Below, piece after piece: positions 15,148 to 62,129 of a stretch of 64,000 nucleotides of DNA. Under the pieces are notes generated by a model. It saw only the letters and a program-made list of their open reading frames with translations. It had not been told where the DNA came from and made no database searches. Made by a program: the position numbers and the translations under genes. Source of the DNA: Zobellia galactanivorans (GTDB lineage: Bacteria; Bacteroidota; Bacteroidia; Flavobacteriales; Flavobacteriaceae); contig NC_015844.1 in NCBI RefSeq assembly GCF_000973105.1, positions 3,282,501 to 3,346,500 on the forward strand, in the 5' to 3' direction. The first letter of the stretch is position 1. Every line of letters starts with the position of its first letter.

Positions 15148-16080
15148 ATGCAAGACGGAATCTACGCAAAATTCAATACTGACAAAGGTGAGATTTTAGT
15201 AAAACTTACCCATGATAAAACGCCCGGTACGGTCGGTAATTTTGTTGCCTTGGCAGAAGGTAAGCAAGAAAATACGGCCAAGGCCAAAGGGGAGCCTTAT
15301 TACGATGGGCTAAACTTTCACAGGGTCATACCTGATTTTATGATCCAGGGCGGATGTCCACAAGGAACCGGTACAGGTGACGCAGGATATAAGTTCGACG
15401 ATGAATTTCATCCCGACCTAAACCATTCGGAACCCGGTGTCCTTTCTATGGCCAATGCAGGACCTGGCACTAATGGAAGCCAGTTTTTTATTACCCATGT
15501 ACCTACTCCATGGTTGGATAACAAGCATACCGTTTTCGGACACGTTCAAAGCGGTCAGGATGTGGTCGATAGCATTGCCCAAGGCGATAAGATAAATAGT
15601 GTTGAAATCGTTCGCGTAGGTGACGATGCCGAAAAATGGGATGCACTTGCGGCATTCGAAAATTTTAAAACTTCCAAAGAACAGCGTCTTGCCGAAGAAA
15701 AGGCTAAGCAAGCTGCGGAATTGGACAAGGTTGCCGCCGGATTCGATGAAACCGAAAGTGGACTACGATATAAACTGATCCAAAAAGGTGATGGGCCCCA
15801 AGCCCAAAAGGGACAAACGGTTTCCGTTCATTACGAAGGATCTTTGTTGAATGGTCAAGTTTTTGATTCTTCTTACAAACGCAATCAGCCCATCGATTTT
15901 CAGTTGGGGGTAGGCCAGGTCATTCCCGGGTGGGATGAAGGCATAGCGCTATTGAAAGTAGGTGATAAGGCAAGGTTGGTGATACCATCGGATCTAGCGT
16001 ACGGTAGTGCCGGCGCCGGTGGGGTAATTCCGCCGAACGCAACCCTATTGTTCGATGTTGAATTGATGGGGGTCAAATAA
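15148..16080 (+). CDS. Dual peptidyl-prolyl isomerase: cyclophilin-FKBP fusion
   Basis: 310 residues with two different prolyl isomerase families in one chain. Residues about 5-150 are a cyclophilin ([16 protein letters not shown] with the catalytic Arg, [18 protein letters not shown]). A charged helical linker of about 45 residues ([18 protein letters not shown]) leads to an FKBP domain at about 200-310 ([55 protein letters not shown]). There is no signal peptide, so it is probably a cytoplasmic folding catalyst. Cyclophilin-FKBP fusions of this order are known from Flavobacterium. Monocistronic, with a strong terminator. Confidence 0.93.
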
Positions 16081-16105
16081 AAGACCCAAGTATATTATAA
16101 AAGAA

Positions 16106-16136
16106 AGCCCTGACCTTACGGTCGGGGCTTTTTTAT
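16106..16136 (+). terminator. Intrinsic terminator after the isomerase gene
   Basis: GC-rich stem AGCCCTGACC / GGTCGGGGCT (one G-T pair) with a TTAC loop, followed by TTTTTT. Confidence 0.75.
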
Positions 16137-16293
16137 TGTGCTACATAGAGCATACCCAATGGGGAAATTCTAAAGGAAATAAGTCTACTAAAGTTTTGTA
16201 AGGGTATTTTGATCAGCTATAATACCGCTCGCGTCTTGCAGGGTATATAGATGAAGTTAGCTTTAAAAAAAAATGATGGTAGTAGGATACTAC

Positions 16294-16386
16294 TTATCGT
16301 GAGTTCTTCGCCCTATTGGTACTTAAGAACAATAAAATGATATTTACTACCAACAGTATAAAGAGTATACCGAAAAAAGTTAACAT
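16294..16386 (-). CDS. Tiny single-pass membrane protein (30 aa)
   Basis: A 30-residue frame beginning MLTFFGILFILLVVN: one hydrophobic helix of about 22 residues and a short basic tail (NRAKNSR). It aligns without gaps to the first 24 residues of the 59-residue protein at 43-222, with 12 identities including the TFF motif and an Asn inside the helix. A -7 box (TACATTTG on the minus strand, 16476-16483) lies upstream. Downstream a small hairpin (GTAGTA-TCC-TACTAC) followed after CATCA by a T-run may end the transcript near 16267. Function unknown; membrane microproteins often regulate larger membrane complexes. Confidence 0.5.
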   Translation of the reverse strand: MLTFFGILFILLVVNIILLFLSTNRAKNSR

Positions 16387-16475
16387 AGTCGCTTCAATTA
16401 TTATGGTTATTGGGGGATAAGTGTTTTTTATGAAGATGCATATATTCTAAAAGGGTTGCTTCAAAAAAACCTAAA

Positions 16476-16483
16476 CAAATGTA
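16476..16483 (-). promoter_or_regulatory. -7 element upstream of the 30-aa membrane protein
   Basis: On the minus strand TACATTTG fits TAnnTTTG, about 90 nt before the start codon. No -33 box is evident. Confidence 0.35.
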
Positions 16484-16522
16484 TGAAAATTATTACGAAG
16501 TTATTGTAGGTTGGCTAAAGGG

Positions 16523-16556
16523 CAAAAAAAAGCCCTGATACCATTGGTATCAGGGC
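16523..16556 (-). terminator. Terminator of the cold-shock gene
   Basis: A perfect 11-bp stem (GCCCTGATACC / GGTATCAGGGC, loop ATT) is followed on the minus strand by a run of eight T. Confidence 0.8.
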
Positions 16557-16584
16557 CTGTATAAAAAAAGTTTATGCGTCTTTC

Positions 16585-16779
16585 TTAGTCTACAACTTTC
16601 ACATTTACCGCGTTCAGTCCTTTTTTACCTTGTTGTAGCTCAAATTCTACAACGTCACCTTCACGAATTTCATCGATTAAACCAGAAATGTGTACAAAGT
16701 GATCTTCGCTTGAACCATCTTCAGTGATAAATCCGTAACCTTTGGAATCATTGAAGAATTTTACTGTTCCTTTACTCAT
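16585..16779 (-). CDS. Cold-shock domain protein, CspA family
   Basis: 64 residues, a single OB-fold. RNA-binding motifs RNP1 (KGYGFIT) and RNP2 (DHFVHIS) are intact, as is the N-terminal GTVKFFN strand. These proteins bind single-stranded RNA and DNA, melt RNA secondary structure and can act as antiterminators. It has its own strong terminator and a long AT-rich upstream region of about 300 bp, compatible with the long cold-responsive leaders of csp mRNAs, although cold induction cannot be shown from sequence. Confidence 0.95.
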   Translation of the reverse strand: MSKGTVKFFNDSKGYGFITEDGSSEDHFVHISGLIDEIREGDVVEFELQQGKKGLNAVNVKVVD

Positions 16780-49522: not shown

Positions 49523-50161
49523 ATGAGACTGCCCTTATTTCCTTTACAATCCATTTTTTTTCCTGGGGAAACCGTACCCCTGCATATTTTTGAAGACCGG
49601 TATAAACAACTTATTTCCGATTGTAGGAAGGAGGCCTTGACCTTTGGGATCCCGGTTTATATCAATAACGGTATGACCTATGGAACCGAAGTACAATTGG
49701 TGGAGATAGTCAACTCTTATGACAACGGGGAGATGGATGTGACCTGTGTCGGTCGTCAAGTGTTCCGAATATTGAGTTTTGAGAACCAGATGCCCGGCAA
49801 GCTCTACGCTGGCGGTACCGTAGAATTTCTTGACAGTGTAAACGATGCCGATAAGGCCTTAAAAAAAACGGTACTGGACCAGATATATCGATTGTACGAC
49901 CTTATGGACGTGTCGTATGCGCCCCTGCCTCTCGAGAAGTTCAACAGTTATGTCTTGGTGCATAAAATGGGACTCTCGTTCGAGCAGGAATACGAGCTTT
50001 TACAAATGCCTAGGGAAAGTGACCGCATGCTTTTTATGCAATCGCATTTGGAGTCTACGATTGCTATGTTGAACGAGGTGAACCGTACGAAGAAAACTAT
50101 TGAAATGAACGGGAACTTCAAGAATTTCGACCCATTGGATTTTAAGGACTTCAATTTGTAA
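49523..50161 (+). CDS. LON N-terminal substrate-binding domain protein
   Basis: 212 residues. It begins MRLPLFPLQSIFFPGETVPL and continues HIFEDRYKQLISDCRKE, the LON substrate-binding (PUA-like) domain found at the N-terminus of Lon protease, but no AAA+ or protease domain follows. A helical C-terminal part contains YELLQMPRESDRMLFMQSHL. Stand-alone proteins of this type are common; their role is not established. Monocistronic between lysA and sucC. Confidence 0.88.
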   Translation: MRLPLFPLQSIFFPGETVPLHIFEDRYKQLISDCRKEALTFGIPVYINNGMTYGTEVQLVEIVNSYDNGEMDVTCVGRQVFRILSFENQMPGKLYAGGTVEFLDSVNDADKALKKTVLDQIYRLYDLMDVSYAPLPLEKFNSYVLVHKMGLSFEQEYELLQMPRESDRMLFMQSHLESTIAMLNEVNRTKKTIEMNGNFKNFDPLDFKDFNL

Positions 50162-50305
50162 TCGTAGTTTTAAATTGAAATTCATGAAGTTAAACGAAGT
50201 GTTTTGCTTCGTTATATACCTGAATTTTATCCGACTCCTTAGGAACTTCAAAAATTGTTAAGCAACTAACTCCATAATTCATTAGTCTAAATGCCGTGGG
50301 TTTGC

Positions 50306-50313
50306 TATTTTTG
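50306..50313 (+). promoter_or_regulatory. -7 element of sucC
   Basis: TATTTTTG fits TAnnTTTG, 27 nt before the ATG at 50341. Confidence 0.4.
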
Positions 50314-50340
50314 CTTTCGAATCTAAATATACCTTAATAT

Positions 50341-51534
50341 ATGAATCTTCACGAGTACCAAGGAAAAGAGATTTTGGCCAGTTTCGGTGTGCGCATTCAG
50401 CGCGGTATAGTGGCCCATAATTCAAAGGAAGCGGTTGAGGCTGCAAAACAATTGACTGCAGAGACCGGAACCGGATGGCACGTAATAAAGGCCCAGGTAC
50501 ATGCGGGCGGCCGTGGTAAAGGTGGAGGTGTAAAATTGGCCAAAAACCTAAAGGAAGTAGAAGAAATTGCAGGAAACATTATTGGAATGAACCTGGTTAC
50601 CCCGCAGACATCTGCAGCGGGTAAAAAGGTACATCAAGTTTTGGTCGCCGAAGATGTTTATTATCCAGGTGATAGCGAAACCAATGAGTTCTATATGTCC
50701 GTACTTTTGAACAGGGGGACCGGAAGAAACATGATCATGTACTCTACTGAGGGAGGAATGGATATCGAAGAGGTGGCCGAGAGCACTCCACATCTTATTT
50801 TTACCGAAGAGATTGATCCTGCTACAGGTCTTTTGCCTTTCCAGGCACGAAAAATAGCCTTTAACCTAGGTCTTTCGGGTACGGCGTTCAAAGAGATGAC
50901 AAAGTTCGTGTCCGCCTTGTACAAAGCATATGTAGAGAGTGACTCCAGTATGTTCGAAATCAACCCTGTGTTAAAAACATCGGATGATAAGATTATGGCC
51001 GTAGATGCCAAAGTGTCTATCGATGACAATGCGCTTTTCCGCAGAAAGCAATATGCCGAAATGCGTGATTTGCGAGAAGAGAACCCTATTGAAGTAGAAG
51101 CCCGTGCAGTAGGCCTTAACTATGTTGACCTTGACGGAAACGTAGGTTGTATGGTTAATGGAGCCGGATTGGCAATGGCAACTATGGATTTGATCAAAAT
51201 GGCAGGTGGTGAGCCCGCTAACTTCTTGGATGTTGGTGGTACGGCCGATGCTAAAAGGGTAGAGGAAGCTTTCCGTATTATCTTAAAGGACGAAGGTGTT
51301 AAAGCCATCCTTATCAACATATTCGGAGGTATCGTTCGTTGTGACCGTGTAGCACAAGGTGTTGTTGATGCATATAAGAACATGGGTGACGCTATCAAAG
51401 TGCCGATTATTGTTAGACTACAAGGTACTAATGCGGAACTTGCCAAGGAAATTATCGACAACTCTGGTTTGGCCGTACACTCGGCCGTTCAGTTTCAGGA
51501 AGCTGCCGATAAGGTTAAGGAAGTTTTGAGTTAG
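50341..51534 (+). CDS. sucC: Succinyl-CoA synthetase beta subunit
   Basis: 397 residues. The ATP-grasp fold starts MNLHEYQGKEILASFGV; nucleotide binding and grasp motifs include KAQVHAGGRGKGGGVKLAKN and FEINPVLKTSDDKIMAVDAK, and the C-terminal CoA-ligase domain has NGAGLAMATMDLIK and INIFGGIVRCDRVAQG. With SucD it interconverts succinyl-CoA and succinate with substrate-level phosphorylation in the TCA cycle. SucD is not adjacent; a terminator follows sucC directly. Confidence 0.96.
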   Translation: MNLHEYQGKEILASFGVRIQRGIVAHNSKEAVEAAKQLTAETGTGWHVIKAQVHAGGRGKGGGVKLAKNLKEVEEIAGNIIGMNLVTPQTSAAGKKVHQVLVAEDVYYPGDSETNEFYMSVLLNRGTGRNMIMYSTEGGMDIEEVAESTPHLIFTEEIDPATGLLPFQARKIAFNLGLSGTAFKEMTKFVSALYKAYVESDSSMFEINPVLKTSDDKIMAVDAKVSIDDNALFRRKQYAEMRDLREENPIEVEARAVGLNYVDLDGNVGCMVNGAGLAMATMDLIKMAGGEPANFLDVGGTADAKRVEEAFRIILKDEGVKAILINIFGGIVRCDRVAQGVVDAYKNMGDAIKVPIIVRLQGTNAELAKEIIDNSGLAVHSAVQFQEAADKVKEVLS

Positions 51535-51558
51535 TATTCAATACGATATAATTTAAGG

Positions 51559-51590
51559 AAAGGGGCGAATATTCATATCGCCCCTTTTTT
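51559..51590 (+). terminator. Intrinsic terminator after sucC
   Basis: The stem AAGGGGCGA / TCGCCCCTT with an 8-nt loop is followed by TTTTTT. Confidence 0.75.
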
Positions 51591-51814
51591 ATGTCTTGCA
51601 TTTCGTTCCTTGGCGCTTACATACGACCGTTTTTAAGAATCAGCTAGCTTTAGGTCGTGCCAAAACCTAACATATCGTTAGATTTTACACCTGTTTTATG
51701 ACATTAATGTTTTGTAGTGTTAAAATTTGGTAAATTGTGAATATGCGTGCTCTATTTTATGATATCTTTAATTTGAATTAGCGAACGGATTTTTACATTT
51801 CAAACCAAAATATC

Positions 51815-52159
51815 ATGAAAAAAGCAGTTTATACCTTAATCTTGGTAATGGCGTTGGGTATCAATTACGGTATGGCCAACACCCCTGTAGAACACAAACC
51901 TAAAATCTCAAAGGTACTTACTTCCCAAATTTACCAGATGCTTGGTGAATACGAGGTGCCAAATGACATTAGAGGTGCCAAGGCCGAAGTACGTGTGGCC
52001 GTTGACAAGGGCAATTACTTGAGAATTTTATCCATTGAGACCGATAATGCCCAATTGGATAAATATATTAGAAGTGCAATTGATTTTGAGCGGCTTGCAA
52101 AGGGTTCGTTTGAACAAGGTGTAGTCTATCGTATTCCGATAGAAGTAGCGAAAAAATAG
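51815..52159 (+). CDS. Small secreted protein of unknown function
   Basis: 114 residues with a Sec signal peptide (LVMALGINYGMANTPVE). The mature part of about 90 residues has the layout helix, then a strand pair (AEVRVAVDKGNYLRILSIET), a helix (AQLDKYIRSAIDFERL) and a final strand VYRIPIEVAKK. The same layout recurs in the 111-residue protein at 60709-61044, suggesting a small paralogous family. I cannot name the domain; the fold resembles a miniature TonB C-terminal-like alpha/beta unit, which is only an impression. It lies between sucC and ald with its own terminator. Confidence 0.65.
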   Translation: MKKAVYTLILVMALGINYGMANTPVEHKPKISKVLTSQIYQMLGEYEVPNDIRGAKAEVRVAVDKGNYLRILSIETDNAQLDKYIRSAIDFERLAKGSFEQGVVYRIPIEVAKK

Positions 52160-52180
52160 TTTTCCATTCTTTGGAAACGT

Positions 52181-52212
52181 AAACGGCCACTCTTAGAGTG
52201 GCCGTTTTTTTA
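52181..52212 (+). terminator. Intrinsic terminator between the small secreted gene and ald
   Basis: The perfect 11-bp stem AACGGCCACTC / GAGTGGCCGTT (loop TTA) is followed by a T-run. It may also stop transcription of the convergent ald gene. Confidence 0.75.
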
Positions 52213-52228
52213 TTGGGTATTCCTAAGT

Positions 52229-53314
52229 TTAGATTTGAAAGGCTTCCTTGATTTCGTCATAAACGATTTCCCCTTCTACGATGTTCAGGCCTTTTTGTAG
52301 GCAGGCATCCTTTTCGGTGGCCTTTTGCCATCCGAGGTTGGCCAGTTTAATGACATAGGGTAGGGTTACATTGGTCAGGGCCATGGTTGAGGTATGTGGC
52401 ACTGCTCCTGGCATATTGGCCACACAGTAATGTACAACATCATCTATAATATATATGGGGTCTTCGTGCGTGGTAGGTTTCGTGGTCTCGACACAACCTC
52501 CTTGGTCTACGGCCACATCGACAATAACCGTTCCTGGGCGCATTTCCTTTAGCATGTCCTTGGTAATCAAGTTGGGGGCTTTCGCTCCTTTTAGCAATAC
52601 ACCGCCAATAATCAGGTCGTGGGTCTTGATATGCTTTCTGATATTGAATTCGTTCGAGAATTCGGTGACCACATGAGGGGGCATTACATCGTTGACGTAA
52701 CGCAAACGCTTCATGTTGATATCCAAGATAGTGACGTGGGCGCCAAGTCCCGCCGCCATTTTTGCGGCCTGAATACCGACTATTCCTGCACCGAGGACCA
52801 GTACCCTGCCTGGGGCTACACCGGGTACACCACCTAAAAGAACGCCTCTTCCCTTTACGGGCTTCTCCAAGTATTTGGCCCCTTGTTGAATGGCCATTCT
52901 ACCGGCTACTTCAGACATGGGGGTCAATAGGGGTAGGGTGCCTTCATCGTCTTCCACTGTTTCGTAGGCGATACATATCGATTTGCTTTTGATCATGGCC
53001 TCGGTCAAGGCTTCGCTAGAGGCAAAATGAAAATAGGTGAATACAATCTGTTGTGGTTGTACCAAGGCGTACTCTACCTCCGTAGGTTCCTTTACTTTTA
53101 CGATCATCTCACTGATGCCGTAGACTTGGCCTATGGTGTCTAAGATAAGGGCCCCGGCTTTCTTGTAGTCGTTATCAAAAAATCCACTGCCTTCGCCTGC
53201 AGTGGATTGGATGTATACGGTGTGGCCGTATTTGGTAAGTTCGTAAACACCTGCGGGGGTCATACCCACCCGGCTTTCATTGTTTTTTATTTCTTTAGGG
53301 ATGCCTATTTTCAT
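52229..53314 (-). CDS. ald: Alanine dehydrogenase
   Basis: 361 residues. The start is MKIGIPKEIKNNESRVGMTP; catalytic residues are in IVKVKEPTEVEY (Lys) and FTYFHFASSEALTEA (His); the NAD-binding Rossmann motif is GRVLVLGAGIVGIQAAKMAAG. It reversibly deaminates alanine to pyruvate and ammonia. Encoded upstream on the same strand are an AEC permease, an exported aminotransferase, a lipoprotein and a TonB-dependent receptor, with an Lrp/AsnC regulator beyond. This could be an amino-acid use cluster, although the genes have gaps of about 100 nt and may be transcribed separately. Confidence 0.94.
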   Translation of the reverse strand: MKIGIPKEIKNNESRVGMTPAGVYELTKYGHTVYIQSTAGEGSGFFDNDYKKAGALILDTIGQVYGISEMIVKVKEPTEVEYALVQPQQIVFTYFHFASSEALTEAMIKSKSICIAYETVEDDEGTLPLLTPMSEVAGRMAIQQGAKYLEKPVKGRGVLLGGVPGVAPGRVLVLGAGIVGIQAAKMAAGLGAHVTILDINMKRLRYVNDVMPPHVVTEFSNEFNIRKHIKTHDLIIGGVLLKGAKAPNLITKDMLKEMRPGTVIVDVAVDQGGCVETTKPTTHEDPIYIIDDVVHYCVANMPGAVPHTSTMALTNVTLPYVIKLANLGWQKATEKDACLQKGLNIVEGEIVYDEIKEAFQI

Positions 53315-53436
53315 AGTGAACGGGGGCTTAAGATTAAAATGTGACTCTAAATAATGCAGGGGCGACTTTTAAAAGGCCCCAGTGAAAATAACTTAAATTA
53401 AGGAAAACGAACCATTTGGGGCTAAAAGAGTTTTTT

Positions 53437-54588
53437 TTAACTTTCTTCCGATGACCTGTGATTGGTGTTAAGACCAACATATGTGCCGTATTGTCCTGAT
53501 ATTTCGGGACTTTTGATTCTTTTGACTTTTTTAATGGCGTATGGAAGAAACGAGACTATGGTCATACCAGCTCCTATCAATAATAAGGTAAGCGGGCTAA
53601 CAAATACTTCGCTAAACGAGAATATGCCGATTACCAAAATAGTGGAGAAGGGAAGGGAACAGGCCAAAATGTTTACGGCAAAGTTGATATCGAAGGTCGG
53701 TTCGGTCTGTTGGTCGTTCTCTTCCATGCTGCTAACGGCGCTCATATGGGCAAAGGGCCAAAAGCTGCAGGCACTTTGGGGGAATACTACCAACAAAAGA
53801 ACCAGAGGGGCCGCTAAGGTGGGAAGCAATAATACGAATATACCTGAGATAAGGAAGGTAATGCCCGATCGGCGTACCAAAAGCGATAGGATGAGTCCGA
53901 ATTCACCGGATTTTATACGTACGGCCATGCCGATGAACAATAACACCAAAGGCGTCATGAGTGTCTTCACGCTTAACACCGTATTTTTTAGAAAAAGTGG
54001 TAGGGAATCGAGGTTTAGCCCGAAAGCCAAAAGGAGGAGCCCAACGATCAAGACAAGGTTGATGGGTTCTTTGAGCAGTGAAAGGCCTAGACTTTTTAGT
54101 TTATTTGAAGTAGAAGGCTTGCCTTCTTGGGCCGAACGAAGATGGTACCAGTTCATGGCGAGCATATAGAGCATAATAAGTACGAAAATTTTATTGCCCA
54201 CATCGGCCAGTGCCGCCAATGCCAAAGAATCGTCACCTAGGTATATGGCCAAGAAAGGAAAGCAGGATAGTCCGGGTGCCAATGAGGGGAGCAACATCAT
54301 TATCGTGCGCTTTTTTGCACTTTGCTCTTTTGATAATGATATGCCGAGTATGTATTTTGATGCGGCCAGCATGATCAAGTTGAATGCCAGGGCCAGTACA
54401 GGGAATATTAAAAGTGAGCTGTCAAGTTTTATTTTTAATAAGGCAACGAATATCACAGCGGGCAGGGCTATACTGAGTATGAGTACTTTAACCCCTTTTA
54501 AATCCTGTTTCGCTACCTTTTTTTGTAGTAGGAAGCCCAAACCAATTATGAGTAATAGTTCTAAAGTGTTTTGAAGGGCGAAATTCAT
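53437..54588 (-). CDS. AEC family permease
   Basis: 383 residues with about ten hydrophobic helices, starting MNFALQNTLELLLIIGLGFL. The two-half architecture with a central loop (YHLRSAQEGKPSTSNKLKSL) and motifs such as LLPSLAPGLSCFPFLAIYLG are those of the auxin efflux carrier / malonate permease group. These secondary carriers move organic or amino acids; the substrate is unknown. The position next to alanine dehydrogenase and an aminotransferase suggests an amino or keto acid, which is inference. The C-terminal 30 residues are hydrophilic. Confidence 0.82.
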   Translation of the reverse strand: MNFALQNTLELLLIIGLGFLLQKKVAKQDLKGVKVLILSIALPAVIFVALLKIKLDSSLLIFPVLALAFNLIMLAASKYILGISLSKEQSAKKRTIMMLLPSLAPGLSCFPFLAIYLGDDSLALAALADVGNKIFVLIMLYMLAMNWYHLRSAQEGKPSTSNKLKSLGLSLLKEPINLVLIVGLLLLAFGLNLDSLPLFLKNTVLSVKTLMTPLVLLFIGMAVRIKSGEFGLILSLLVRRSGITFLISGIFVLLLPTLAAPLVLLLVVFPQSACSFWPFAHMSAVSSMEENDQQTEPTFDINFAVNILACSLPFSTILVIGIFSFSEVFVSPLTLLLIGAGMTIVSFLPYAIKKVKRIKSPEISGQYGTYVGLNTNHRSSEES

Positions 54589-54700
54589 GAGTAAGCAGTT
54601 TAAGGTTATTGTTTAGTCTGTAAGTGAGAAAGGCCTATTGGGAGCCGAGCATAAAAGCATCAAGTCTGTTGGTTTTACGTTCGGCTCTTGGCCATTGAAA

Positions 54701-55888
54701 TTATGCCAGTACCTTTTGTAGGGCCGTAGTGAAGAGTTTCATTTCTTCCATGGTACCCATGCTCACACGACACCAATTTTTGTCCATAATGCTGAAGGCG
54801 CGTACGCCAACACCTTCTGCGGTCATTTTCTCCAAGAATGCTTTTCCTTCCATTTCAATAGGAAAGATTATAAAACTTGTAGATGATGGTACATAGCTAT
54901 AACCCATTCCGTCTAATACAGAATAAACATACTCCCTACATTCAGAATTCAATTTTCTTGTTTTGTTTGAAAATTCAATATCATCCATACTTGCCATTGC
55001 AGCATAAACTGATGGTAATGAAATACCCATACCACCTCTTGTTATTTTTTGAATGATAGCCAATGTTTCTGGTTGAGCAACCATGTAACCTACACGTAAG
55101 CCGGCCATACCTTGAATTTTAGAGAAAGTACGTGCAATCATTACATTCTTGCCTTCGTTTATTAGAGATACCATACTTTTTTTAGCAGCATCATCTAAAA
55201 ATCCTAAATAGGCTTCATCTACAAAAATTGGAACTTTTTCAGAAACCCTAGAGCAAAAATCAATAAGTTCTTCGTGGTCTGTCATACTTCCCGTTGGATT
55301 GTTCGGGTTACAGATGTATACCAATTTTGTGTCAGCGTCGATGGCAGCTTCCATAGCTGGTAAATCATGAGACCAATCATCTTTTAGTTTGATGGGCTTC
55401 CATGTTGCTCCTGTAGCTTCAGCTACTTTTATCAATGACATGTATGAAGGGTCCGCAGAAACAATATTTCCTCCATTTTGGAAAAATACCATCGCAGTTT
55501 TTTCTAAAAGGTCAGAAGAACCAGGCCCCATCATAATAGTTTCGGCTTCAACTCCTTCTAATACTGCAATTTTATCTATGAGTGTATATAACTCCTTCCA
55601 GGCATATCTGTTACCTTTTGGTGCATATTTTTGCATAGCATCAACTGCCATAGGAGATGGTCCGTAAGGGTTTTCATTGGCGTTTAATTTTGCAAGAAGT
55701 TCAACAGGTTTGTCTACTTCATAAGGCAAATACTCTTTAAAAAAGGGAGTATATGGAAGATTGCCTTGAGCATCTATGGTCACTGGCTCGTTACCAAATG
55801 CCCCATAACTCAAATACGGTGCAGCTATTGCCCCGGCAGCTGTAAGTGCTCCTCGTTTCAACCAAGCTCTTCTGTCTAATGTTTTCAT
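54701..55888 (-). CDS. Tat-exported PLP-dependent aminotransferase (HisC-like fold)
   Basis: 395 residues. The N-terminus is a twin-arginine signal (DRRAWLKRGALTAAGAIAAP), unusual for a fold-type I aminotransferase. The core matches HisC-like enzymes: LNANENPYGPSPMAVDAM, CNPNNPTGSMTDH, VDEAYLGFLDD and the PLP-Lys loop RTFSKIQGMAGLRVGYM. It would carry PLP into the periplasm in folded form. Because of the signal and context, a role in histidine synthesis is unlikely. From about 54850 upstream the gene is AT-rich (30-43 percent GC in sampled rows), whereas its last 150 nt have about 47 percent. Confidence 0.88.
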   Translation of the reverse strand: MKTLDRRAWLKRGALTAAGAIAAPYLSYGAFGNEPVTIDAQGNLPYTPFFKEYLPYEVDKPVELLAKLNANENPYGPSPMAVDAMQKYAPKGNRYAWKELYTLIDKIAVLEGVEAETIMMGPGSSDLLEKTAMVFFQNGGNIVSADPSYMSLIKVAEATGATWKPIKLKDDWSHDLPAMEAAIDADTKLVYICNPNNPTGSMTDHEELIDFCSRVSEKVPIFVDEAYLGFLDDAAKKSMVSLINEGKNVMIARTFSKIQGMAGLRVGYMVAQPETLAIIQKITRGGMGISLPSVYAAMASMDDIEFSNKTRKLNSECREYVYSVLDGMGYSYVPSSTSFIIFPIEMEGKAFLEKMTAEGVGVRAFSIMDKNWCRVSMGTMEEMKLFTTALQKVLA

Positions 55889-55921
55889 AATAATATGTGT
55901 TTTAAGTTAAAAAGTTTAAGT

Positions 55922-56542
55922 TCAATTTGATTCCACAGGTTCTGCGTTTAAGCCTAAATCACCTGACGCAATAATGGTAGTCCCATCAACATCGTATATG
56001 TTGATATGAGAATCCATTTCCGAAATACCTTCATAAAAACCAGCTTCGTCAATTACATAAAACTTGTTTTCCTCAAATTCGGCATAAAAATTAAGGAGAG
56101 GAAGGTATTCCTCGGTATCTCCATCACGATCATAGTCATCTGTATCCAACTGTGTATCATCTTCGTCAAATTGTTCTGCAAAAATCTTGACGTCATACAG
56201 GGTCATCATTGTTGTAATTTCTGTGCCAACAGCTCCCCCCATAATTGCCGAAGGATAAACAATTTCAAAAGGATCAGTTGAGTCATAGAGTGCACTGAAC
56301 TCCGGGCTGTCTAGAGAAACCTGTACCAATGTCTGGTCTAGAGTAGTTTTATAAAAAACGACTCTACCAGTTACATTTGACCCTGACGGATCGGTAGATT
56401 CAATCGTGTATGCCATGTATTCGTTCAAGGTGCCACCTCCTTCTGCAGTAGTGAGAACAGGATCCAGTCTTTCTTGTTCACATGAAAACAAGCTTGCCGT
56501 AACCACTAGTGCTGCTAAAATGTTTTTTATATACTTTATCAT
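55922..56542 (-). CDS. Asp-rich lipoprotein of unknown function
   Basis: 206 residues from the ATG giving MIKYIKNILAALVVTASLFS, a lipoprotein signal ending at FSCEQE; a longer frame begins at 56569. The mature part is beta-rich and acidic, with an Asp cluster (QLDTDDYDRDGDTEEY, about residues 141-156) that resembles a calcium-binding loop but does not fit the EF-hand or dockerin consensus fully. No family recognised. It sits between the TonB-dependent receptor and the exported aminotransferase in an AT-rich stretch, and probably acts with them at the outer membrane. Confidence 0.7.
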   Translation of the reverse strand: MIKYIKNILAALVVTASLFSCEQERLDPVLTTAEGGGTLNEYMAYTIESTDPSGSNVTGRVVFYKTTLDQTLVQVSLDSPEFSALYDSTDPFEIVYPSAIMGGAVGTEITTMMTLYDVKIFAEQFDEDDTQLDTDDYDRDGDTEEYLPLLNFYAEFEENKFYVIDEAGFYEGISEMDSHINIYDVDGTTIIASGDLGLNAEPVESN

Positions 56543-56579: not shown

Positions 56580-59528
56580 CTATAGTGTAAAGCTCAGTCT
56601 CCCAAAGTAGTAGGCTCCTGATGATCCTTGCTGATAGTTGGAATACAGGTTGAAGGTTCTTAGCTCGTACCTTATGATTTCAGGATATTCGTTAAAGATG
56701 TTGTTCCCTCCAACGGTAAAGCTGATTTTGTCGGTAAAGTTGTAAGTGATACCAATATCCGTGGTAAATTCAGGTGTAAAAAATTGGTCGGCATAACCAG
56801 TGCTGCCATCAAGTAAGGTACGTTGGATGTTGTCTCTTGTTTGAACGGAGCCAAAGCGTGTACCTCTTAACATGGCCGAGAACTTGCCAATGGAATAATT
56901 GAGTGTGCCAATAATTTTACTACTTGGTGTTCCGGTTTCGAATTGACCGATAAGGCTGCGGTTGACATAATTGTCGGCCAATTCTTCGTCGGTTAGGTTG
57001 GTGTTCAGGTCAGGTAGGTTTACGCCTTCGAATGTGTTCTCCCTAAAGGTTCCCGATAGTATTACGCCTAATCGTCCCGCTCCAAGATTGGTGTTGTAGT
57101 TCATTACGGCTTCAACCCCTTTAGTGCTGATGTCACCGCCATTTATTCTAAAACTGGCCAGACCACTACCTATGATCGGGGAGAGTACGGGGGCTTGACC
57201 TGCGTCAAATTCCCCGGTTTCGAAAATTCTATCGAATATGTCAATTTTATAGGCATCGACCGTAAGGTTCAGTTTTCCGATTTTGGTAGTGAAGCCTAGG
57301 CTGTAGTTTCTTGATCGTTCTTCCTGTAACTGGTTTACTCCTAAGGCTCTTGCGGCAGAACTGCTGTTTTGGTAGAGTGTGCCATCAAATGGTTGTAGGC
57401 CGATGAAAAAGGTATAACTGTGCGAATAGTTTAATTCTTGAAGGGATGGTGCCCTAAAGCCACTACTGAAAGACCCTCTAAAGGCAAAATTATCGCCGAT
57501 GGAATAGCGGGCAGCTACTTTGCCGGTCATTACATTTCCGAAGTCGGAAAAGTTTTCCATACGAACGGCTCCTGAAATCAAGAAATCTTCCGTAACATCC
57601 AATTCCATATCTAAATACGCTGCCATTACGGAACGGTAGGTGTTACTTTCGTTTTCCGGAGCAAAACCTCTGAAGCACTGGCAGTTCAAAGCGTAGTTTT
57701 TCACCAATTCCTGGCTTACCCCTGCATATGGAAGTACGACCGCATTTCCAGAGCCGTCAACAATTGGGGTTCCGTTTAGGTCTTCCAAGGGGAAACCGTC
57801 GGGACCAACGAGGGCTTGGTTGTCTTGTGTAGCTGTTACAACGCCTGCGGTGCCTGCTGTCCAACTTTCTTCTTGACCGGCTACTATGGAGTAATTCTCT
57901 ACCCTTAACTCCCCACCAAAGGCCACGTTAAGCCCAGATAGAATATCATCGTAATAATTATTGAAATCTAGGTTGATGGTGTTTTGGGCGAAGCTGTGCG
58001 TACCTAGGTTCATTTCGGTCGGGGAACTTGTTCCTATACTGGCATTCCAGGTATTGAACATTCCGTATTTGGCGGAGTTCATACCAAAACTGTTACTCAG
58101 GTCAAAATCGAAATCACCTAGTTTACCTGTGATACCCATGGATAAGGAAAGATTGTATTGGTCGGTGTAAATCTGTGGCCTAAATCCGTTCGGGTATAGG
58201 TCGTAACTTGTTCGGTCTGCTTGTCCGGCCCTTCTGTAAAAGCAGCTGTAGGCATCTGAGTATTGGTAGCCGAAGTCTCCAAAAGCATAAAAATCCGTGG
58301 TTTCACTCAAGGGATTTTCAAGGTTGAAGCCAAAGCCGATGAGGGTTTTTGCAGGTTGTCCCGAATAGGTGGAGACGTCTACCTGTTCAATATCCCTTGC
58401 GGCCATGAGGCCTTCTACAGTTGTTAATGAGCCAATTGCTGCGGCGTCACCGTTTGCTTGGGCGGCAATAAGTTCTGGGTTGGTTATTACGGGTCTACCG
58501 CTAACATCGGTAGTTTCATTGTTCAAATAGTTGTCGCTGTAAAGGGGGGCTCTGTCTATCTCAAGAACTGTGGGGCGTATGGTACGTTCCGATTGGCTTA
58601 TTAAAGCTGATGCGTTAAAGAAGCCTCCGTTTTCGAAACCTACACCGTAATTGCCGTCGAATTGAAAGTTGAATCCGTCCCAATCGCCCGAGGATCTGTT
58701 CAAGGTTTTTTCCCCATCGGTTAGGTCAGAATCGCTAAAGTCGGGGGACTTGTTCGGGTAGCCTCCAACGGTAAGGGTTCCCGTAAATTCACCGGTTCCT
58801 TTTTTGGTAACTACGTTGATTACCCCGGCAATGGCATCGGAGCCGTACTGGGCCGAAGCGCCATCCCTAAGTATTTCAATATGGTCAATGCCAATGGAAG
58901 GTATAAATTTCATATCTACGGCATTAGAAGCTGTACCGGTCTGTGATGCCGATAAGATGGCCGAGGTGTGCCTTCTCTTTCCGTTAACCAATACTAACAT
59001 TTGGTTAGGCGCCAATCCCCTGAGGCTTGGTGGGCTAACGAAAGACGAAAGGTCTCCTCCACCGCTGGTATATGCCGTAAATGAAGGGGCCGAAGCCGCT
59101 AACATTTGGGAAAGATCTTGCTGTGGCATATTGATGGCGTCTTTTTTTATGTCGATGACATCTACTGGCACCGGGGTGTCTAGCTTGGTTCTGGGTTGTC
59201 CCCTTGAGCCGATTACGATCGTTTCAAGTAGTTGTTCCGCTGCCATAACCAAGGTGACGTTTAATGTGGTCTGTCCGTTTATGGGTATTTCCTTGGTGCC
59301 GTAACCCAATGATGAGAATATAAGAATGGCATCGGCCGGGGCATCTATGGTATACTCCCCGTCAAAATTTGTAGTGGCCCCTTTTGTCGTGCCTTTAATA
59401 ATGATGTCGGTGCCGGGTAGTACAACACCTTCTTCGTCGATTACCGTACCGGTAATAGTCTGCTCTTGGCCAAATGATACATATATGCAGTTTAACAAGA
59501 GGAATGATAGTATTAGAGCTTTCTTCAT
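56580..59528 (-). CDS. TonB-dependent receptor with CarboxypepD_reg-like domain
   Basis: 982 residues: signal peptide (NCIYVSFGQEQ), one CarboxypepD_reg-like domain (ITGTVIDEEGVVLPGTDIII to about residue 90), plug (LRGLAPNQMLVLVNGKRRHT, then HIEILRDGASAQYGSDAIAG) and a barrel ending in YYFGRLSFTL. Related to the receptor at 29155-32136, with which it shares the LRGL...VNGKRRHTS block. Followed on the same strand by the lipoprotein gene (38 nt from its ATG) and the exported aminotransferase, suggesting one transcript. The ligand is unknown; an amino-acid-like or peptide ligand would fit the neighbours. Confidence 0.93.
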   Translation of the reverse strand: MKKALILSFLLLNCIYVSFGQEQTITGTVIDEEGVVLPGTDIIIKGTTKGATTNFDGEYTIDAPADAILIFSSLGYGTKEIPINGQTTLNVTLVMAAEQLLETIVIGSRGQPRTKLDTPVPVDVIDIKKDAINMPQQDLSQMLAASAPSFTAYTSGGGDLSSFVSPPSLRGLAPNQMLVLVNGKRRHTSAILSASQTGTASNAVDMKFIPSIGIDHIEILRDGASAQYGSDAIAGVINVVTKKGTGEFTGTLTVGGYPNKSPDFSDSDLTDGEKTLNRSSGDWDGFNFQFDGNYGVGFENGGFFNASALISQSERTIRPTVLEIDRAPLYSDNYLNNETTDVSGRPVITNPELIAAQANGDAAAIGSLTTVEGLMAARDIEQVDVSTYSGQPAKTLIGFGFNLENPLSETTDFYAFGDFGYQYSDAYSCFYRRAGQADRTSYDLYPNGFRPQIYTDQYNLSLSMGITGKLGDFDFDLSNSFGMNSAKYGMFNTWNASIGTSSPTEMNLGTHSFAQNTINLDFNNYYDDILSGLNVAFGGELRVENYSIVAGQEESWTAGTAGVVTATQDNQALVGPDGFPLEDLNGTPIVDGSGNAVVLPYAGVSQELVKNYALNCQCFRGFAPENESNTYRSVMAAYLDMELDVTEDFLISGAVRMENFSDFGNVMTGKVAARYSIGDNFAFRGSFSSGFRAPSLQELNYSHSYTFFIGLQPFDGTLYQNSSSAARALGVNQLQEERSRNYSLGFTTKIGKLNLTVDAYKIDIFDRIFETGEFDAGQAPVLSPIIGSGLASFRINGGDISTKGVEAVMNYNTNLGAGRLGVILSGTFRENTFEGVNLPDLNTNLTDEELADNYVNRSLIGQFETGTPSSKIIGTLNYSIGKFSAMLRGTRFGSVQTRDNIQRTLLDGSTGYADQFFTPEFTTDIGITYNFTDKISFTVGGNNIFNEYPEIIRYELRTFNLYSNYQQGSSGAYYFGRLSFTL

Positions 59529-60088
59529 AAGTACGTGTTTTGGTTGATACTAAACAGTATTCATTTGTCCGACCTCACCTTGCCCTACTCATGGGGGAAC
59601 GGTGGTCAAATGCATATCAAAAGAAAAGTTCCGGATACTTAACGGTGTCGATTGTCAATTTCTGTGACCTAACGACAAGACAATATTAGGGTGAGTTTTT
59701 GATAAAAAAAAATGTGAAATGGTTTGAAAATACTGGTTTTTAGTAGGTTACAAACGTATTGTCTAACGAATCGATAATTTTTTGGCCAATTTTAACCGAT
59801 ATGGCAGATTTTGTTTTTCGGTGGTTTTAAAATCTATCAATTAGTAGAAATTGTCTTATGAAATCACTTTTATGGCATCCAAAATTTGACATGGTCAATT
59901 TTTAATTATATCTATAAAAAAACGCCTTTTATTAGTGAATTATAACTGTTTTTTTTAAATCATTAAACTATTTTTACTAAAATCATCTATTTGGTAAATT
60001 AAATTGAAAGATTTTTTAATCAATAAAGTTGATTGTCAGGCTTTGAGCCCTGAAATGAGGCAAATACTAACCGCGAAAAATACTACAA
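59529..60088. other. Divergent intergenic region between the TonB-dependent receptor and lrp-like genes
   Basis: 560 bp without a convincing coding frame, strongly AT-rich in its right half. On the minus strand TACGTTTG (59751-59758) fits TAnnTTTG and would give a leader of roughly 215 nt for the receptor; no paired TTTG is found. It is the natural place for Lrp/AsnC binding sites, but I could not define one. Confidence 0.4.
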
Positions 60089-60550
60089 ATGAGAGATAAA
60101 CTTGATGGAGTAGATCACAAAATATTGACCTTGTTGTCCGACGACGCACAGATGCCGTATACCGAGGTTGCCAAAAGGGCCGGGATCTCTCCGGGAACGG
60201 TTCATATGAGAACCCGAAAGATGAAGAATATGGGGGTAATCAAGGGGGCTACCCTGAGTTTGGACTATAGTAAAATGGGGTATAAAATGACGGTTTTTCT
60301 GGGGATTTACCTACGTGAGAGTTTTTTGTACAAAACGGTTATGGAAGAGCTTGCTAAAATTCGGGAGGTGGTAAAAATTCACCATAGTACGGGTAAGTAC
60401 GATATATTCATTAAAGTCCATGCAAAAGATAGTCTCCACTATCGTAACCTTTACCAAGAATCTATACTTACTATAGAAGGGATAAGGGGTATAGAGTCGT
60501 TTATATCGGTGGAGGAGAAAATGAGCCGACATATAGATTTTGAAGGATAA
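60089..60550 (+). CDS. Lrp/AsnC family transcriptional regulator
   Basis: 153 residues. The N-terminal helix-turn-helix (VDHKILTLLSDDAQMPYTEV, then RAGISPGTVHMRTRKMKNMG) is followed by the RAM ligand-binding domain (TVFLGIYLRESFLYKTVMEE and HHSTGKYDIFIKVHAKD). Such regulators sense amino acids and form octamers that wrap DNA. It is divergent from the TonB-dependent receptor cluster that leads to alanine dehydrogenase. A regulatory link is plausible but unproven, since similar Lrp genes also occur as general regulators in flavobacteria. Confidence 0.92.
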   Translation: MRDKLDGVDHKILTLLSDDAQMPYTEVAKRAGISPGTVHMRTRKMKNMGVIKGATLSLDYSKMGYKMTVFLGIYLRESFLYKTVMEELAKIREVVKIHHSTGKYDIFIKVHAKDSLHYRNLYQESILTIEGIRGIESFISVEEKMSRHIDFEG

Positions 60551-60708
60551 TCGACCATTGCTTGGTGGTACTGCCAATAGCGCTTAAATAAAAATGAGCC
60601 CATGATGATGTTTTTTGGTAATAAAACGTTAAAAACCGTTTTTTGGGTAACGATCGTATACTTCCGTCGTCTTTAAGGTATATCATCAATCATTTAAATC
60701 AACAAATC

Positions 60709-61044
60709 ATGAGAAATTTAAGTTTACTATGGGTGGCTGTAATGCTACTATCGGTCGGTAGTCTTTTTGCCAATGGGAAAGAGAGTGAAAAACCTTCAGG
60801 AAGTCTGGCTTATCAAATAGCTGAGCTATTAAGTGACAACGAATTGACCGCCCAAGAGGTCGATAAGCTTGCAAGTGTGAGTTTTACGTTGAATGAACGT
60901 CAAGAGATCGTAATATTGGCGATCGATTCCGATAACGAGGTTGTAAAGGCCTTTGTGGAAGAAAGACTTGAGGCTAAAAAGGTAGTTGTGCAAGGGTATA
61001 AGGCAGGCAGGACCTATACTTTGCCGGTGCGGATAGCCCGCTAA
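60709..61044 (+). CDS. Small secreted protein of unknown function
   Basis: 111 residues from the ATG giving MRNLSLLWVAVMLLSVGSLF; a Sec signal ending near LFANGKE. The mature part has a helix (SLAYQIAELLSDNELTAQEV), a strand pair (ASVSFTLNERQEIVILAIDS), a helix (NEVVKAFVEERLEAKKVVV) and a final strand GRTYTLPVRIAR. The same order and ending occur in the 114-residue protein at 51815-52159. Function unknown. A terminator follows. Confidence 0.65.
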   Translation: MRNLSLLWVAVMLLSVGSLFANGKESEKPSGSLAYQIAELLSDNELTAQEVDKLASVSFTLNERQEIVILAIDSDNEVVKAFVEERLEAKKVVVQGYKAGRTYTLPVRIAR

Positions 61045-61068
61045 GCTGTGTTGTTGGAAGAAATATGG

Positions 61069-61110
61069 ATCCTGAGACCCGATTAATTATCGGACTCAGG
61101 ATTTTTTTTT
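61069..61110 (+). terminator. Terminator overlapping the end of the DUF1456 gene
   Basis: The stem ATCCTGAG / CTCAGGAT with additional inner pairing (CCGAT / ATCGG) is followed by nine T. The stop codon of the convergent DUF1456 gene lies inside the right arm. Confidence 0.75.
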
Positions 61111-61458
61111 GTTCTTGTATTTTACGTTGGTAATATCTTTGTTTATCCGTTTTTGCTGTTGGGTCTTGAAGTCCGGGCGCTTCTGTTTCAAGGGCTTTAC
61201 GGGTTTCTTCATCAGTACCTCGCCAGGGTTTTTTGGGTTGTCCTTCGTTCCTCTTAAGTGGATAACTAGTCCGTTCAAGAAATTACGTAAAACTTGATCC
61301 CCACACTCCCGGTAATTGGGGTGGTCTTCTTTTCTGAAAAAAGCACCCAATTCACTCTTGCTAATGTTGAAATCAACAAGTTTTAAGATGTCTACGATCT
61401 CATCATCGCGCAACATGAGGGCTACTCTAAGCTTTTTGAAAACATCGTTATTGTCCAT
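61096..61458 (-). CDS. DUF1456 (YehS-like) protein, single-repeat form
   Basis: 120 residues from the ATG at 61458 (a TTG two codons upstream is less likely). One DUF1456 repeat (DVFKKLRVALMLRDDEIVDI through FRKEDHPNYRECGDQVLRNF) is followed by a Lys-rich tail (KQKRPDFKTQQQKRINKD). E. coli YehS has two such repeats; the single copy here aligns best with its second repeat. The basic tail suggests nucleic-acid binding, which is inference. A perfect 20-bp palindrome covers its start codon. Confidence 0.85.
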   Translation of the reverse strand: MDNNDVFKKLRVALMLRDDEIVDILKLVDFNISKSELGAFFRKEDHPNYRECGDQVLRNFLNGLVIHLRGTKDNPKNPGEVLMKKPVKPLKQKRPDFKTQQQKRINKDITNVKYKNKKKS

Positions 61459-61477
61459 TGTCAAAAATTTTTGACAA
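61458..61477. repeat. Perfect 20-bp palindrome at the DUF1456 start codon
   Basis: TTGTCAAAAATTTTTGACAA is self-complementary over all 20 bases. It begins at the first base of the DUF1456 ATG and extends into the region shared with the hsp20 promoter, where further TGTCA/TGACA half-sites occur. It is probably a binding site for a dimeric regulator. Confidence 0.5.
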
Positions 61478-61587
61478 GGTATTACAAATTAAACTTCCGA
61501 CCACAATCGCTAGGCAATTATCGGGTATATAATATGGGAGGTAACCCTTCTAACCTATCCATTTGACACGCGTTTTTAGTTTAAAAA

Positions 61588-61599
61588 TGACAATTTGAC
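61588..61599 (+). promoter_or_regulatory. TGACAATTTGAC element upstream of hsp20
   Basis: Matches the grpE promoter element (TGACATTTTGAC) at 11 of 12 positions and likewise contains a TTTG that could serve as -33 box. A good -7 box downstream is not seen. Confidence 0.4.
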
Positions 61600-61703
61600 C
61601 GTTATAAATGTTAAATAAATGTCAAAAAGTCAGTTAAAGAGGCTTGGTACGTGAATTGTTTATAACAGTTCAAATTAAAAGTCTAATACAAAACATTGAA
61701 GTC

Positions 61704-62129
61704 ATGAGTATAGTAAAAAGAAATAACCTGGTTTTTCCTTCTTTGATGAACGATATTTTTAAACCCGACTGGTTTGGGGGTATGGAAAATGTCGCGGCCA
61801 GTTCACCTGCAGTAAATATTAAGGATAATGAAAAGAATTTTGAGCTCGATTTGATGGTTCCTGGTCGAAAAAAAGAGGATTTTAATATTGAAGTAGATGC
61901 CGATTTATTGACTATTTCTTCCGAGATCAAGAAGGAGGAAGAAACAAATGAGGAGAATTACACCCGTCGTGAGTTTAGGTTTTCGTCTTTTAAGAGGGCA
62001 TTTACCCTTCCGGAAACTATCGATTCCGAAGCGATCAAGGCGGAGTATATTGATGGGGTATTAAAAATCACCTTGCCCAAAAAAGAAGAAGCTTTGCCAA
62101 AACCAAAGCGTGTTATTGAACTAAAATAA
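61704..62129 (+). CDS. Hsp20/alpha-crystallin family small heat-shock protein
   Basis: 141 residues from the ATG giving MSIVKRNNLVFPSLMNDIF; the frame extends upstream without similarity. A short N-terminal arm is followed by the alpha-crystallin domain (AVNIKDNEKNFELDLMVPGR to about residue 128, with the conserved YIDGVLKITLPKKE) and a basic tail. The usual C-terminal I-x-I motif reads VIEL, so it is imperfect. An ATP-independent holdase for unfolding proteins. Its upstream region shares an element with the grpE promoter. Confidence 0.93.
   Translation: MSIVKRNNLVFPSLMNDIFKPDWFGGMENVAASSPAVNIKDNEKNFELDLMVPGRKKEDFNIEVDADLLTISSEIKKEEETNEENYTRREFRFSSFKRAFTLPETIDSEAIKAEYIDGVLKITLPKKEEALPKPKRVIELK

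Follow-up and report, generated by a model that had tools for sequence, protein, structure and literature searches.

The near-invariant partner of the Tat-type aminotransferase of Zobellia galactanivorans is the gene directly downstream of it, which encodes an AEC-type permease that was absent from the original prediction for this DNA. Both genes lie on the negative strand of the window, the 64,000-nucleotide stretch analysed here, in a genome of 5.52 Mb assembled as a single contig. The aminotransferase gene occupies 54701..55888, encoding 395 aa from an ATG start, and the permease gene occupies 53437..54588, encoding 383 aa. Together they may form a two-gene periplasmic transamination module, in which a Tat-exported aminotransferase works with an AEC/PIN-fold permease that moves its 2-oxo-acid partner, a reading to which roughly even chances are given.

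The product of 54701..55888 is a HisC-like, fold-type I aminotransferase with putative Tat export. It matches the class I/II aminotransferase family (PF00155) at 179 bits, well over the cut-off of 19.7, and contains both PLP motifs, NPNNPTGS and SKIQGMAGLR. The PLP-binding lysine K257 (TFSK) sits in TFSKIQGMAGLR and is encoded at 55118..55120 on the negative strand. Residues N194 to P198 of NPNNPTGS, D224, Y227, K257, R265 and R374 are invariant in an alignment of 41 aminotransferases, and N197, D224, Y227, K257, R265 and R374 are also invariant in 108/108 rows of a wider alignment that includes other Tat-type relatives and two signal-less rows. The closest named relatives are found in Zobellia species, at 95–97% protein identity, and the nearest solved structure, also the best PDB match, is 3ly1.

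Placement of the enzyme within a named subfamily is less direct. The top NCBIfam match is PRK09105 (NF006580) at 267.5 bits, yet this is under the subfamily cut-off of 444. The HisC model (TIGR01141) follows at approximately 252.5 bits, such that the enzyme shares the fold family and catalytic residues of HisC but scores under the equivalog cut-off of 276.55; the third-best match is to the PtaA model (NF051461) at 223 bits, where the equivalog cut-off is 500. The same nine NCBIfam models match all 41 aligned aminotransferases, with E-values up to 1e-30. A housekeeping HisC role was rejected, as a better-matching HisC (362 bits, over the cut-off) is encoded elsewhere in the genome by a 350-aa open frame. 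Matches to CobD (145 bits) and GntC (115 bits) raise the alternative that the protein is a related PLP enzyme of the HisC/CobD/GntC superfamily, a decarboxylase or cyclase, and no transaminase; however, both scores are far under their cut-offs (290.55 and 415, respectively) and below those of HisC, PRK09105 and PtaA, and this alternative is considered highly improbable. Searches of plasmids with the aminotransferase returned 335 records, all at less than 60% identity, with a maximum of 34.5% among the best 40 of the 335; many of these plasmid matches are annotated as histidinol-phosphate transaminase.

As a separate observation, the aminotransferase gene appears to have been swapped between Zobellia lineages, based on comparison of window positions 54750–56450 with four Zobellia loci (L068, L024, L025 and L026). 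The flanks at 50000–54799 and 60000–61999 have 77–98% DNA identity to Z. uliginosa DSM 2061 in 200-bp bins, with all bins except one at 87% or more, and the aminotransferase gene itself has only 62–74% DNA identity to this strain. The gene is 84–96% identical to those of L024, L025 and L026, and the flanks of those loci are 49–94% identical. The two Zobellia alleles group with different genera in the aminotransferase tree, and the difference is also seen at the protein level.

The N-terminus of the aminotransferase, MKTLDRRAWLKRGALTAAGAIAAPYLSYG, fits a Tat signal (LDRRAWLK), with the twin-arginine codons R6-R7 at 55868..55873 on the negative strand. Both arginines are invariant in 41/41 aligned aminotransferases spanning 37–97% identity, while the residue that follows them varies freely. 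Two members (L069 and L072) are seemingly truncated when read from ATG, yet include the RR if translation is taken from a start further upstream. A custom Tat filter of simple design, requiring RR, hydrophobic residues after the RR and an h-region, was passed by all 65 members of the aminotransferase family longer than 300 aa; these loci contain 898 other ORFs of 150 aa or more, of which 34 passed. The stray rate of the filter is low, since 33 of these 34 ORFs belong to two other families that repeatedly bear RR, and a chance occurrence of RR in the aminotransferase was rejected on these counts. A TatC protein scoring over its cut-off is also encoded in the genome, so that a signal conserved in orthologs and the export machinery are both present. 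Export of the aminotransferase by the Tat pathway is thus well supported at the level of sequence. The original prediction of a Tat-exported, HisC-like aminotransferase with full PLP motifs is borne out by the RR signal, TatC and the two motifs, and the conservation of RR in orthologs, whose loss had been named as grounds for refutation, was examined and found to be complete in the 41 aligned sequences.

Scanning one genome per species with the aminotransferase, a procedure that finds close relatives only, identified 68 loci, all of which bear Bacteroidota titles, although other phyla are not thereby excluded. The permease gene is located directly 3′ of the aminotransferase gene in 65 of the 68 loci. 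The three loci without it comprise two (L088 and L091) that end inside the aminotransferase gene at a contig edge and one (L090) that holds a 35% relative. Because these loci had been selected by the aminotransferase, searches led by the permease were also run, with matches accepted at E-values up to 1e-20. The permease was found in 9 of 395 genomes phylum-wide and in 32 of 299 genomes of the family, with G000, G008, G175 and G360 present in both sets, and in 9/9 and 32/32 of these genomes the aminotransferase gene immediately precedes it on the same strand; as four (395 set) or six (299 set) candidates were scored per genome, extra copies may escape these counts. From the side of the enzyme, an aminotransferase scoring at least 440 bits occurs in 33 of the 299 genomes of the family, 32 of which encode the permease. 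The exception is a close relative (G605, locus L162) in which the permease is absent from a 15.5-kb stretch. In one of the 32 genomes (G565, L163:5879-7071), a draft, the aminotransferase gene is disrupted by a frameshift that leaves two overlapping frames, and one stop interrupts the permease match, representing either a decaying copy or a draft-assembly error.

With start codons assigned mechanically, 14 of 19 permease loci compared for spacing have the two genes −1 to 34 bp apart (−1 bp in L060, L080 and L082), four have gaps of 114–127 bp and L077 has one of 341 bp; the gap in the window is 112 bp. No promoter- or terminator-like site was identified between the aminotransferase and permease genes on the coding strand. 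Promoter-like matches numbered 19 against 20.9 in shuffled sequences, showing no excess, and terminator-like matches numbered 12 against 9.2, a slight excess.

The permease is highly divergent in sequence and forms its own compact family. The protein encoded in the window had no match in Pfam or NCBIfam at E 0.001, among PDB sequences up to E 1 or in plasmid records at E 1e-4. Across 40 aligned permeases, Mem_trans (PF03547) is matched by 21 (E limit 10, best 2.2e-6), the TIGR00946 auxin efflux carrier model by nine (E limit 0.01, best 7.8e-12) and UbiA by three, with a best E-value of 2.4e-6 that is as strong as that of Mem_trans. An AF2 model of the permease (mean pLDDT 81.6) aligns to the PIN-like domain of LYCHOS with a Z-score of 25.8 over 311 residues (rmsd 3.4) and to plant PINs with Z-scores of 20.7–22.9, compared with 19.5–20.7 for the bicarbonate carrier SbtA and about 16–20 for Na/H and bile-acid carriers (NHA/ASBT). 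Foldseek searches with the same model also ranked LYCHOS and the PINs at the top. The protein was assigned to AEC rather than UbiA because its model matches the LYCHOS/PIN fold, and is best called a divergent AEC/PIN-fold carrier based on this predicted structure. The likeness to the AEC family (TC 2.A.69; TIGR00946/PF03547) and plant PINs thus lies in the fold and in sequence matches of some members; the difference, besides sequence divergence, is that every searched genome with this permease encodes it next to a Tat-type aminotransferase. Organic anions such as auxin, malonate and malate are the substrates of AEC/PIN carriers.

Phylogenetic analysis of the enzymes indicates that the permease is paired with two aminotransferase lineages. 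The tree contained 75 aminotransferases, including 40 permease-linked rows drawn from 31 scan loci, eight other genomes and the window; one row, from L135, was labelled as another Tat-type aminotransferase (other_Tat), though it adjoins a flavin amine oxidase. In a quick tree, 39 of the 40 permease-linked aminotransferases form one clade (SH-aLRT 100). The remaining one, from locus L122 of genome G310, which belongs to another class of the phylum, falls in a different clade of Tat aminotransferases, while the permease at this locus is a clear member of the same permease family with up to 49.6% identity. A single clade for all permease-linked aminotransferases was rejected, at a cost of 97 log-likelihood units (p-AU 1.4e-8), in an AU test that omitted the long-branched L156; membership of the permease-linked group had been fixed from gene context in advance of tree building, whereas the decision to test came after inspection of the tree. 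The pairing may have arisen twice, or one enzyme may have displaced another next to a retained permease; in either case, the association of two aminotransferase lineages with one permease argues for functional coupling over mere linkage.

The genes upstream of the aminotransferase are less constant. A TonB-dependent outer-membrane receptor with CarboxypepD_reg-like, plug and barrel regions identified by Pfam is encoded at 56580..59528 on the negative strand, with no SusD gene beside it, and a lipoprotein with a predicted SOD-like beta-sandwich is encoded at 55922..56542 on the same strand. The association of the enzyme with these two genes, emphasized in the original prediction, is real (receptor in 40/68 loci, lipoprotein in 41/68) but limited to some genera, namely Zobellia, Maribacter, Arenibacter, Cellulophaga and their relatives. 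In Arcicella (L077) and in L123 and L126, a large receptor-like gene, a SusD or SusD-looking gene and a small lipoprotein-like gene are found instead, the SusD gene being SusD-like_2 by Pfam in L077 and L123 and SusD by looks only in L126. The printed loci of the Flagellimonas type are without either outer-membrane set. With a presence in only 40 of 68 loci, the receptor was rejected as an essential partner of the aminotransferase.

The remaining neighbours vary in a similar manner. A divergent Lrp/AsnC-type regulator gene (PF01037, PF13404) is located at 60089..60550 on the positive strand and occurs in 40/68 loci, including the receptor-less loci L034 and L074, where it is still divergent to the aminotransferase gene. 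Lrp/AsnC proteins sense amino acids. Over 38 complete sets of genes (37 loci and the window), pairwise identities of receptor and lipoprotein co-vary with a Spearman coefficient of 0.65 and those of permease and regulator with 0.59; the aminotransferase co-varies weakly with the other genes (0.22 to 0.35), which argues against tight co-evolution of aminotransferase and receptor. The outer-membrane uptake and regulatory genes are interchangeable around the aminotransferase.

The lipoprotein model aligns to Cu,Zn superoxide dismutases with Z-scores of 10–11.4, with a best Foldseek E-value of only 0.0076, and no Pfam match below E 0.04 was found for any of its members. Cu,Zn superoxide dismutase has six metal-binding histidines, whereas a single His, along with C21, is invariant in 29 lipoprotein sequences; judged by its metal site, the lipoprotein is no Cu,Zn SOD. 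Downstream of the permease, an accessory alanine dehydrogenase gene at 52229..53314 on the negative strand matches TIGR00518 at 505 bits, over the cut-off. It lies beside the module at 86–98% identity only in the Zobellia loci L024, L025, L026 and L068, and was rejected as a core gene given this confinement to Zobellia. Genes that match it at 26–29% identity, and may encode transhydrogenase subunits, are located a few kb away from the module in Arenibacter and Belliella (L050, L051, L055, L057 and L058 near 1355–2382; L085 near 15758–16726).

Among solved structures, those closest to the plug of the receptor are siderophore receptors such as PirA and FepA, a result that, along with the PtaA match, invites comparison with the tailoring of secreted metabolites. 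Passages of PMC6206403 describe PtaA of Pseudomonas as a PLP transaminase that is exported in folded form by Tat and modifies pyoverdine. By analogy, the Zobellia enzyme could act in the periplasm on an outbound siderophore, pigment or signal, converting an amino-acid side group of this metabolite to an oxo acid, with the receptor reimporting the product and the permease moving a co-substrate or precursor. The likeness extends to Tat export, to PLP chemistry and to a PtaA profile match that covers nearly the whole domain; however, its score of less than half the cut-off separates the enzyme from PtaA, the receptor is missing from 28 of 68 loci, no large biosynthetic gene stood out among the few neighbouring genes viewed at 20 loci, and similarity of the plug is general to TonB receptors. 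Tailoring of this type is considered unlikely.

A transamination cycle requires two substrates, and the reading preferred here, a periplasmic transaminase with a permease for its 2-oxo-acid partner, would supply a route for one of them. The aminotransferase would fold with PLP in the cytoplasm and then be exported by Tat, as suggested by its signal and the presence of TatC. In the periplasm, it would exchange an amino group between a 2-oxo acid and an alpha-amino acid or a compound like it; the PLP residues needed for such a reaction are intact, as is the C-terminal Arg374, the presumed carboxylate-binding residue. The permease, judged by its genetic coupling to the enzyme, would pass the 2-oxo-acid partner through the inner membrane, whether to bring in the deaminated product or to provide the acceptor that converts PMP back to PLP. 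Uptake across the outer membrane may be served by interchangeable systems, with the TonB receptor and lipoprotein in Zobellia, Maribacter and Arenibacter relatives, SusC/SusD-type genes and a small lipoprotein in some others, and neither adjacent in the remaining loci inspected. The Lrp/AsnC-type gene positioned at the locus in many members could regulate the module, and in Zobellia the alanine dehydrogenase encoded nearby hints that the pair being recycled is alanine/pyruvate. Import of carbon skeletons left by deamination outside the cytoplasm, or supply of an acceptor, is favoured over export of a finished signal because of the amino-acid-sensing type of regulator and the recurring uptake receptors. 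The aminotransferase may process an imported amino compound, as originally proposed.

Two other assignments of the permease substrate were weighed against a 2-oxo acid. In the first, the permease moves an amino acid, as donor or product, and the enzyme only serves to make an importable amino acid from oxo acids that are poorly transported. The same genetic coupling fits this scheme and the solved PIN-like domain protein 8u58 is listed with tryptophan, but characterised AEC carriers take organic anions without an amino group, and the scheme appears quite unlikely. In the second, the enzyme makes aromatic 2-oxo acids such as indole-3-pyruvate, which, or a precursor of which, the PIN-like permease exports to an algal host as a signal or in auxin-like chemistry. 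In PDB searches, the top matches of the enzyme include the putative phenylalanine aminotransferase 4r2n, the permease has the PIN fold, and Zobellia, Maribacter, Cellulophaga and similar genera, which are marine, account for many carriers of the module. However, Arcicella, Belliella and Mongoliibacter also have the module, as does G310 of a different class, so an algal role cannot be general, and a substrate cannot be read from the PIN fold; export of such compounds is regarded as very unlikely. A broader version of the preferred reading, in which the transaminase removes or exchanges amino groups outside and the PIN-type permease carries only 2-oxo acids, as acceptor supplied or product taken in, would make the module a general amino-nitrogen shuttle. 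This extension is offered tentatively and is on the doubtful side; if true, it would explain how the second substrate of a periplasmic PLP transaminase is supplied.

Tat TRANSAMINASES also occur in other settings. Forty further loci, permease carriers included, were hand-picked and non-randomly chosen from the stronger aminotransferase matches, with neighbour contexts counted only for families that have their own models. The permease adjoins 8 of the 42 aminotransferase rows in these loci and is absent beside 34, of which 32 carry a Tat-like signal, indicating that a Tat transaminase can work without the permease. The two rows lacking RR are the lowest-scoring, at 239 and 237 bits with our own profile. 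Phylum-wide, a Tat-type HisC-like match of at least 248 bits is present in 43 of 395 genomes, and in the 33 of these 43 for which the stretch was examined, the aminotransferase carries RR, or RK in two genomes. By their sequences, Tat-type HisC-like enzymes are common in Bacteroidota.

Ten of the 34 permease-less aminotransferases, in nine loci (L127–L135), adjoin a flavin amine oxidase and a protein with a Hint-like match. The oxidase of L129 matches PF01593 at 182 bits, and in the eight of these loci whose oxidase N-terminus was inspected, it carries an RR signal (six loci) or RK (two). The pairing of aminotransferase and flavin amine oxidase in these loci is a candidate for a second periplasmic module for amino compounds in Bacteroidota. 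RK replaces RR in the tandem aminotransferase pair of L128 (5944-8386) and in the aminotransferase of L130 (6309-7496), and the neighbouring oxidases also carry RK, suggesting an RK-tolerant Tat system in the family to which L128 and L130 belong.

The original prediction described periplasmic aminotransferases as unusual, a fair statement that nonetheless passes over known examples, as PtaA and PvdN of Pseudomonas are already presented as periplasmic transaminases in passages of PMC6206403. The same passages report PtaA in species without pyoverdine and, for these enzymes, assume periplasmic PLP to be "somehow regenerated" (PMC6206403). No description of a permease-linked transaminase module was found in the open-access literature, surveyed mainly at abstract level; to that extent the permease-coupled module is new, while periplasmic transaminases as such are known. 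The permease, never encountered away from such enzymes in the genomes searched, is a candidate for supplying the missing co-substrate or taking up the product. The distribution of Tat-exported HisC-like enzymes suggests a recurrent theme of Bacteroidota and not a speciality of Pseudomonas, and the name histidinol-phosphate aminotransferase is probably wrong for them. For the seaweed-associated Zobellia, the module suggests a little-known handling of amino compounds outside the cytoplasm.
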